From Hypnocyclicus thermotrophus (GTDB lineage Bacteria; Fusobacteriota; Fusobacteriia; Fusobacteriales; Fusobacteriaceae): a stretch of 64,000 bases of DNA. The first letter of the stretch is position 1; each line of letters starts with the position of its first letter. The notes under the pieces are model-generated. The model searched no databases. It was not told where the DNA came from and saw only the letters and a program-made list of their open reading frames with translations. The stretch lies in assembly GCF_004365575.1 (NCBI RefSeq), contig NZ_SOBG01000009.1, forward strand, positions 1-64,000, written 5' to 3'. Positions 31,055-49,864 of the stretch are shown piece by piece. The position numbers and the translations under genes are program-made.

Positions 31055-31092
31055 TATAATAATATAGAAATTTGTAAAAATATAAAAGAACT

Positions 31093-31136
31093 TACACAAA
31101 GAACGCAAAGTAAAAGAGAAGAGGACCACAAAGAAG
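31093..31136 (+). repeat. Copy A of a dispersed ACACNNAG-type repeat, without a gene
   Basis: TACACAAAGAACGCAAAG, then an A/G-rich stretch, then GACCACAAAGAAG matches the two repeats flanking the ATPase/nuclease gene at 47901 and 49745 in order and spacing, with several differences. The rest of the gmd-fcl gap (31137-31219) holds an A-rich stretch and a 5-base-pair hairpin (ACCGT...ACGGT, 31184-31200) just before the fcl ribosome site. Confidence 0.8.
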
Positions 31137-47021: not shown

Positions 47022-47885
47022 ATGAAAGGAATTATTTTAGCAGGAGGTAGTGGTACTAGATTATATCCAGTAACAAAGGCAATTTCAAAACAAATAACAC
47101 CTATTTATGATAAACCTATGATATATTATCCTTTATCTGTGTTAATGCTTGCAGGGATAAAGGATATTCTTATTATATCAACACATAGAGATTTACCTGT
47201 ATTTAAAGAGTTATTAGGTAGCGGAAAAGATTTTGGAGTTAACTTTAGTTATAAAGTACAAGAGCATCCAAATGGACTTGCAGAAGCCTTTATAATTGGT
47301 GAAGATTTTATAGGTAATGATACATGCGCATTGATATTAGGAGATAATATATTTTATGGACATGGATTAACAGGAATGGTAAAAGAAGCAGCTAGTAGAA
47401 CAAAAGGAGCTACTATATTTGGTTATCCAGTAAAAAATCCAAAATCTTTTGGAGTAGTAGAATTTGATAAAAATGGTAAAGCTATTTCATTAGAGGAAAA
47501 ACCAGAAAATCCAAAATCAAATTTTGCCATACCAGGATTATATTTTTATGATAATACAGTAGTAGAAAAAGCTAAGAAAGTAAAACCGAGCTCAAGAGGA
47601 GAATTAGAAATAACAACTCTTAATGAAATGTATTTAAAAGAAAAAACATTAAATGTAATAAATTTTGGACGTGGGATGGCATGGCTAGATACAGGTACAC
47701 ATGATGGATTATTAGATGCGGCTAATTTTGTAAGTACTGTGCAAAAAAGACAAGGAGTAATGGTAGCTTGTCCAGAAGAGATAGCATATAATAATGGCTG
47801 GATTGGAAAAGAAAAAGTAGAAGAATTAGCAAAACCACTTATGAAAACACATTATGGTAAATATCTAATGGAATTAATTAGATAG
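47022..47885 (+). CDS. rmlA: Glucose-1-phosphate thymidylyltransferase
   Basis: RmlA makes dTDP-glucose from glucose-1-phosphate and dTTP, the first step of dTDP-L-rhamnose synthesis. The 287-residue protein starts [24 protein letters not shown], the nucleotidyltransferase signature. It also has [12 protein letters not shown] and [11 protein letters not shown], all expected for the family. GAAAGGGG precedes the ATG. In most bacteria rmlA is adjacent to rmlC, rmlD and rmlB; here an unrelated ATPase/nuclease gene follows before rmlC. Confidence 0.96.
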
Positions 47886-47900
47886 TGAAGGAAAAGACAT

Positions 47901-47944
47901 TACACGGAGAACACAAAGGTAAAGAAAAAGAACCACAAAGAAAA
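47901..47944 (+). repeat. Copy B of the dispersed repeat, upstream of the ATPase gene
   Basis: TACACGGAGAACACAAAG is followed after an A-rich spacer by AACCACAAAGAA. The same length and order occur in copy C at 49745-49788 with about five base differences. Bases 47902-47918 also pair with 47976-47992. Confidence 0.85.
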
Positions 47945-47992
47945 GCATAAAAAACTTAGAGGAACTTAATTTTTTCTTAGTGTACTTTGTGT
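47902..47992. repeat. Imperfect inverted repeat formed by copy B and a reversed copy
   Basis: ACACGGAGAACACAAAG (47902-47918) and CTTAGTGTACTTTGTGT (47976-47992) form 15 pairs out of 17 in RNA, two of them G-U. The hairpin ends 18 bases before the ATPase start codon, so it may be the element end or an RNA structure affecting translation. Confidence 0.7.
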
Positions 47993-48010
47993 AGAGTTTT
48001 AGGAGGTAAA

Positions 48011-49723
48011 ATGAAAAAAATAGCATATGGGATAAGTAATTTTAAAACAATAATAGAAGATGGTTATTATTATGTAGATAAAACTAAATATATTGAGATG
48101 TTAGAAAATTTAAATGAAAGATATTTGATATTTTTAAGACCTAGAAGATTTGGGAAAAGTCTATTTATATCATTATTGGAATATTATTATGATATAAATT
48201 ATAAAGAAAATAAGCTGTTTGATGAATTTTATATAGGAAATAATCCAACAAAATTAAAAAATAGTTATTATATATTGAAATTTAATTTTTCAGGAATAAA
48301 TACAAAAATAGAAAAGGAGACATTAGAAGGATTTAGGACAAAAGTAATAAATGGAATAAAAGAATTTTTAATAAAAAATAAATTTAAAATGAAAATAGAT
48401 GAAGAAAAAACTGCAACGGAAATAATGAGTACATTTTTAACAGAAGTAAGAGCTTTAATTGATGGAAAAATATATATATTAATAGATGAATATGACCATT
48501 TTGCCAATGAATTATTAGGTTTTAATTATAATTTTTATCAAAATTCAGTAAGCAGTAATGGATTTGTAAGGAAATTTTATGAAGTAATAAAAGATGGGAC
48601 AGGAACTGGAATAGTAGATAGGTTATTTATAACAGGAGTAAGTCCAATAACATTAGATAGTATGACAAGTGGATTTAATATAGGTTCAGATATAACATTA
48701 GATTCAGATTTTAATGAGATGATGGGGTTTACAGAAGAAGAGGTAAAGAAATTAGCCAATGCAACAATAGAAAATTATGATATAGATGCTAATATAGATA
48801 GATTAAGAGACTATTACAATGGATATAAATTTAATAAAAAGTGTAAAAATAGAGTATATAATAGTGATATGGTACTTTATTATATGAGTTATTACCAGAA
48901 AAATAAAGAAGAACCTGAAAATATAATTGATAATAATATATTAAGTGATTATAGAAAAATAGGAAAATTGTTTGAAATAGGTGGAAGAAATAATGAAAGA
49001 ATAAAAATATTAAAAGAGATAGTAATGGGAATAGAGCAAGAAGTAGTAATAAGTAGTAGATTTAATTTAGAAATAGAGTTTAATTTAGATGATTTTAAAT
49101 CTTTGTTATTTTATATGGGACTTATGACAATAAAAAGAGTAGATGAATTTGGAGCAGTATATATAGGGGTTCCAAACTATGTAATAAGAGAATTATATTT
49201 TGAATATTTCAATAAAATAATAGAAGAAGAAGCAGATTTTAAAATAGATGATAGCAAAATTAGAGAAGCGATATTAGAAATAGCAAGAGATGGTAAAATT
49301 GATAAATTAATAAAATTAACAGAAAATATATTGCATAAACTATCAAATAGAGACTTCATAAAATTTGATGAAAAATATGTAAAAGTAATAATGTTAATGT
49401 ATTTATATAAAAGTAATTTATATTTCACAAAGAGTGAATATGAGGTAGAAGATGGATATATAGATATAGTGTTGAAAAAAGGGACAATAGGACAGCCGAG
49501 ATATTATGGAATGTTTGAATTGAAATATATATCAAAGAAAGATTATACAGAAGACTTATTAAAGAAAAAATTAGAAGAAGCAAAAGAACAATTAATGAAA
49601 TATAAAGAATCAGAAGAACTAAGAAGTATGAATAATATGAAAAAATGGGCTTTGGTATTTGTAGGATCTGAATGTAAGGGAATGGAATGTATAAGTGATA
49701 ATATGAAAAAAGATATTATGTAA
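48011..49723 (+). CDS. AAA-ATPase (PF09820-like) with C-terminal PD-(D/E)XK nuclease-like domain
   Basis: The 570-residue protein begins MKKIAYGISNFKTIIEDGYYY, a typical start for the AAA-ATPase_like family. It has a Walker A loop RPRRFGKS (Lys49), Walker B ILIDEYDHF (Asp159/Glu160), and a C-terminal nuclease-like site with Asp485 (YIDIVL) and Glu503-x-Lys505 (FELKY). The family is known for multicopy occurrence in Bacteroidetes, Fusobacteria and Clostridia, and its function is unknown. AGGAGGT precedes the ATG. All key residues look intact, so the gene is probably expressed. It has no functional link to its rml neighbours, which argues for insertion. Confidence 0.85.
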   Translation: MKKIAYGISNFKTIIEDGYYYVDKTKYIEMLENLNERYLIFLRPRRFGKSLFISLLEYYYDINYKENKLFDEFYIGNNPTKLKNSYYILKFNFSGINTKIEKETLEGFRTKVINGIKEFLIKNKFKMKIDEEKTATEIMSTFLTEVRALIDGKIYILIDEYDHFANELLGFNYNFYQNSVSSNGFVRKFYEVIKDGTGTGIVDRLFITGVSPITLDSMTSGFNIGSDITLDSDFNEMMGFTEEEVKKLANATIENYDIDANIDRLRDYYNGYKFNKKCKNRVYNSDMVLYYMSYYQKNKEEPENIIDNNILSDYRKIGKLFEIGGRNNERIKILKEIVMGIEQEVVISSRFNLEIEFNLDDFKSLLFYMGLMTIKRVDEFGAVYIGVPNYVIRELYFEYFNKIIEEEADFKIDDSKIREAILEIARDGKIDKLIKLTENILHKLSNRDFIKFDEKYVKVIMLMYLYKSNLYFTKSEYEVEDGYIDIVLKKGTIGQPRYYGMFELKYISKKDYTEDLLKKKLEEAKEQLMKYKESEELRSMNNMKKWALVFVGSECKGMECISDNMKKDIM

Positions 49724-49744
49724 AATTAAAAAAAGTCAAAATAA

Positions 49745-49788
49745 TTACACGGAGAACACAGAGAAAAAGAAAAAGAACCACAGAGAAG
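49745..49788 (+). repeat. Copy C of the dispersed repeat, downstream of the ATPase gene
   Basis: TACACGGAGAACACAGAG, an A-rich spacer and AACCACAGAGAAG repeat copy B in the same direction. This copy lies 21 bases after the ATPase stop and 89 bases before the putative rmlC ribosome region. Confidence 0.85.
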
Positions 49789-49864
49789 AATATGAAAATA
49801 TTGAAATAATTGACAATTAACAACTGGAAATGTATAATAAAAAAAGATTCAAGTAAATAGAGTT

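Follow-up and report, generated by a model that had tools for sequence, protein, structure and literature searches.

A DUF1703-type gene for a predicted ATPase/nuclease was found inserted between rmlA and rmlC, in a sugar-synthesis operon, in the 64,000-nucleotide stretch of Hypnocyclicus thermotrophus DNA analysed here (the window), and the repeats that border it belong to a hairpin element that exists independently of the gene. We consider it fairly likely that dispersed hairpin repeats were present at this junction and provided the site at which the gene landed or recombined, arriving as a passenger; a unit of gene and repeats that moves by itself is improbable.

The DUF1703-type gene and its neighbours

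The genes at the locus are listed below; the names rmlA, rmlC and rmlD, like the cysN-like and heptose-synthesis names used further on, were taken from reading the translations.

47022-47885, + strand: rmlA (glucose-1-phosphate thymidylyltransferase), flanking the insertion on the left, from the ORF list
48011-49723, + strand: DUF1703-type gene, PF09820 (AAA-ATPase-like) and PF08011 (PDDEXK_9), 570 aa
49863-50456, + strand: rmlC, right neighbour of the insertion, from the ORF list
from 50527: rmlD, downstream of rmlC

The frame of the DUF1703-type gene is open from the ATG at 48011 to the stop codon at 49721-49723. Its product carries PF09820 at residues 6-219 (175.8 bits against a Pfam cut-off of 26.1) followed by PF08011 at residues 453-556 (54.7 bits against 25.5), and this order, with both domains above the curated cut-offs, places it in the DUF1703 family. 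A Walker A variant, RPRRFGKS, is located at residues 43-50 and a Walker B motif, DEYD, at residues 159-162, while the PD-(D/E)XK residues D485 and E503-x-K505 were found together with the motif IV glutamine, Q527; all of these were near-invariant among 88 family rows. The intact ATPase gene with a PD-(D/E)XK-like site that the earlier note had described between rmlA and rmlC was thus borne out. The Walker A variant, the Walker B motif, the PD-(D/E)XK motifs and the glutamine of motif IV all match the published description of DUF1703 (PMC1913061), and the domain order is likewise that of the family. It differs from the family in being a single intact copy, placed within an operon and between hairpin repeats, and no other difference was found. 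An ATP-driven nuclease activity may be predicted for the protein from the conserved motifs only. It matched none of the PADLOC models of anti-phage defence proteins at E values up to 1, and a sequence search for homologues of solved structure returned none.

The 2.2-Mb genome has no second intact member of the family. Its only other trace of the family was a degraded PF09820 remnant with several stops (L092, G000:C2:157655-157843), and repeats like those beside the intact gene were not found in the 15 kb around it.

Insertion and origin of the gene

Homologues of rmlA were present in 61 of 61 genomes searched, the best of them, 92% identical, in a genome of another family (G038). In 14 loci of related genera rmlA either overlaps rmlC or is separated from it by a few tens of bases, with neither an ATPase gene nor a repeat in between. 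Because rmlA and rmlC are adjacent in these loci, the DUF1703-type gene is, on this comparison, an insertion relative to its relatives, and the empty sites sought by the earlier note do exist. The nearest empty junctions are from other genera and diverge from the window too far for the breakpoints to be placed.

In a protein tree the window gene, one G038 copy and six Riflebacteria-phylum rows formed a clade with an SH-aLRT support of 98, and this trans-phylum clade stood apart from the other Fusobacteriota paralogues. This grouping points to horizontal acquisition, and the gene was probably gained in that way, in agreement with the scattered, patchy distribution reported for DUF1703, a family that spreads horizontally and expands (PMC6387759).

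Repeat copies in the window genome

Three copies of the repeat were located in the window.

47900-47993, + strand: complete hairpin repeat of about 94 bp, left arm 47900-47943 and right arm about 47976-47993, from end-to-end alignment and folding
49744-49788, + strand: second copy, left arm only, exact pattern match, without right arm or fold
31092-31136, + strand: third copy, left arm only, in the gap upstream of a nucleotide-sugar reductase-like gene, without an ATPase gene or fold

The copies at 47901 and 49745, one on each side of the DUF1703-type gene in the same orientation, and the gene-free copy at 31093 were found as first reported. The upstream copy, however, exceeds the 44 bases then given, which cover its left half; its right arm (CTTAGTGTACTTTGTGTA), whose end lies some 17 bases ahead of the start codon of the ATPase gene, had been missed. 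Over its whole length this copy could be aligned with 18 full copies found in another genome of the genus (G001). Its imperfect hairpin had a folding energy of -19.7 kcal/mol, which no shuffled sequence equalled (z -3.1), the consensus hairpin has 25 pairs, and neither of the copies at 49745 and 31093 formed a hairpin. No compensatory pair changes were seen in the alignment, as the arms hardly vary, and the hairpin therefore rests on complementarity and folding energy.

Allowing up to three mismatches, the 16-base repeat core gave 3 matches against 0.18 expected from shuffling. Three search patterns that differed in stringency yielded no further copies in the 2.2-Mb genome, leaving a total of three, all within 18.7 kb of the DUF1703 locus. 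Plasmids and phages searched with the hairpin unit gave no meaningful match, and a literature search on the repeat words, on GxxExxY plus repeats and on dispersed palindromes returned nothing relevant.

The repeat exists without the gene

The same-genus genome G001 contained between 133 and 159 copies of the repeat depending on the pattern used, and thus at least 133, with no match to a reversed control pattern and no full-length match to the ATPase protein family. Within the 318 kb examined, the midpoint of 64 of 71 copies fell in no ORF of 90 aa or longer, and 41 of the 71 had a same-orientation neighbour within 600 bp, so that clustering is usual. Repeats within 400 bp bordered both sides of 9 of 235 G001 ORFs (3.8%), including cysN-like and heptose-synthesis genes, and left-arm-only copies were also common. 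As clustering is normal in G001, a pair of repeats around a newcomer gene requires no special mechanism. The 98 Fusobacteriota genomes surveyed include 3 with the repeat, against 48 that encode a member of the protein family.

The repeat is a dispersed, non-coding, palindromic intergenic element of about 90 bases that is independent of the ATPase gene. The earlier note had read gene and repeats as a single unit that moves or copies itself; the insertion of the gene and its probable horizontal gain are supported here, but the single mobile unit is not, given the number of G001 copies that lie beside ordinary genes in a genome without a full-length family member. The occurrence of the repeat apart from the gene family, which the note had named as evidence against its own reading, was thus largely observed.

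REP, BIME, REPIN and MITE-like repeats are short, non-coding palindromes that occur in many copies, almost all of them intergenic, and are clustered. The repeat of the window and G001 resembles them in all these respects, being multi-copy, intergenic and hairpin-forming, but differs in sequence; terminal repeats with target duplication were not demonstrated for it. Its palindromic shape, size and intergenic dispersal would also suit a REP/REPIN-like element spread by a RAYT or IS200-type Y1 transposase. However, Y1_Tnp (PF01797) had no match in the window genome (G000) or in G001 (93% complete), the genomes with most copies of this repeat, while positive controls were matched. Such a transposase was rejected as the mover of the repeats, and a REP/REPIN-like origin is very improbable.

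In the intergenic regions of G001 (L138-L157), short repeats of at least ten families, several of them palindromic, form mosaics in changing order; examples are CCACGGAAAAACGCGGATT, AGTGAGAAGT, CAACGCAGAG and ATTCGTGTAATTCGTG. In a genome of another genus (G014), two copies of a CACAGAG variant were located on two contigs (L210 and L211) in near-identical mosaics with CACGAAT words.

Comparison with G038

The nearest homologue of the window protein in the phylum (G038 L093, 60% identical) also has same-orientation direct repeats of the same class on both sides, which differ in sequence from the window repeats. Its gene is placed after rmlC and a UDP-glucose dehydrogenase remnant and not between rmlA and rmlC. 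The rmlA-rmlC junction of G038 contains no DUF1703 gene; instead it holds a palindromic CGCAGAG repeat (left arm TTCAACGCAGAG, right arm CTCTGCGTTGAA; L089:9510-12440) that is interrupted by a second repeat copy and by what looks like group II intron sequence, which includes a reverse transcriptase, the group II assignment being a reading of the ORF and flanking sequence and not the result of a family search. A fragment related to this intron sequence was also observed in the repeat downstream of the G038 DUF1703 gene. At this junction both genomes carry a foreign element lodged in palindromic repeat sequence, but the cargo in G038 is the group II intron sequence and not a DUF1703 gene. The same operon gap and the same class of hairpin with different cargo favour the repeats as landing or recombination sites over the repeats as ends of a DUF1703 element.

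It could be envisaged that a larger polysaccharide segment, transferred from a donor rich in repeats, once brought repeat and gene along together, with no special link between the two. All three genomic copies do lie close to the locus, G038 shares rmlA at 88% and rmlC at 87% DNA identity despite belonging to a different family, and in the repeat-rich G001 repeats stand on both sides of 3.8% of the genes. The position of the ATPase gene relative to rmlA, rmlC and the UDP-glucose dehydrogenase remnant, however, differs between window and G038, so that the gene did not travel as part of one fixed block, and a single joint transfer is rather unlikely.

Repeats at other family loci

The expectation that repeat copies would consistently flank family members was not upheld. 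Under a uniform test, CRCRRAG clusters were present on both sides of 2 of 87 family loci and on one side of none. The two are the window locus and G038 L093; since they are mutual nearest relatives in the phylum and both stand beside rml genes, they may share a local history. No repeats were found at the other 15 family loci of G038. CACAGAG-type repeats, which the earlier note had mentioned near such genes in other bacteria, were not found, as CACAGAG or CRCRRAG, at Riflebacteria-phylum family loci (about 50 stretches), and one genome of that phylum has 33 CRCRRAG clusters, all away from its family loci.

Direct repeats of other sequences flanked 4 of 23 family genes and 5 of 172 neighbours on Riflebacteria-phylum contigs (Fisher p 0.013), a control drawn from a limited set of contigs picked around family genes. 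Three of the four, however, belong to a single repeat-rich genome (G076), in which the repeat concerned turns up again close by, and the excess is regarded as a lead. At L237 and L238 of G076, DUF1703-family genes have an unrelated dispersed sequence with CGCTAAT words as direct repeats on both sides, which suggests that the gene sits among whichever repeats its host has.

These data bear on the proposal that repeat, gene and repeat form a transposase-free element, in which the gene's own protein recognises and cuts the repeat and the gene is copied by homing-like repair. The local pairing of repeats in the window, the same arrangement at the nearest homologue, the intact catalytic residues, the modest excess of flanking direct repeats in one phylum and the known horizontal spread and expansion of the family are all consistent with it. 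Against it stand the rarity of repeats at family loci, the six Riflebacteria-phylum members of the window clade, which have no flanking direct repeats above chance, the repeat-rich sister genome G001 without a full-length gene, and a flanking repeat sequence that varies between hosts. Repeat-directed mobility by the DUF1703-type protein is possible but weakly supported (n=2), and a homing-like unit is quite unlikely. A narrower version limits the homing-like activity to the subclade of the window and G038, whose members would act on palindromic intergenic repeats and place their own gene next to a copy or between two, with no transposase involved; it is a little less likely again.

Proposed course of events

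On the landing-site explanation, one or more repeat copies would already have been present in the rmlA-rmlC gap of the lineage's polysaccharide locus when a horizontally transferred DUF1703-type gene entered it as a passenger. Entry would most likely have occurred by recombination of repeats on the incoming DNA with resident ones, after which a full repeat copy remained upstream and a half copy downstream of the gene. We infer both this order of events and placement by homologous recombination at the repeats, rather than by the protein's own activity. Several observations run against the explanation: of the genome's three copies, two stand around its single family gene, a non-random placement; the nearest homologue in G038 likewise has direct repeats of the same class on both sides; Riflebacteria-phylum family loci display the modest excess of flanking repeats; and neither an intermediate of recombination nor a strain that carries exactly one repeat but lacks the gene was seen.

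The analysis separates two things that resembled one element, the widespread DUF1703 family and an independent hairpin repeat. Should the homing reading prove true, a large nuclease family that still awaits characterisation would gain a function. In the light of G038, hairpin repeats may be landing sites for different foreign elements entering an operon gap, which offers a testable and modest account of how operons may gain passengers.
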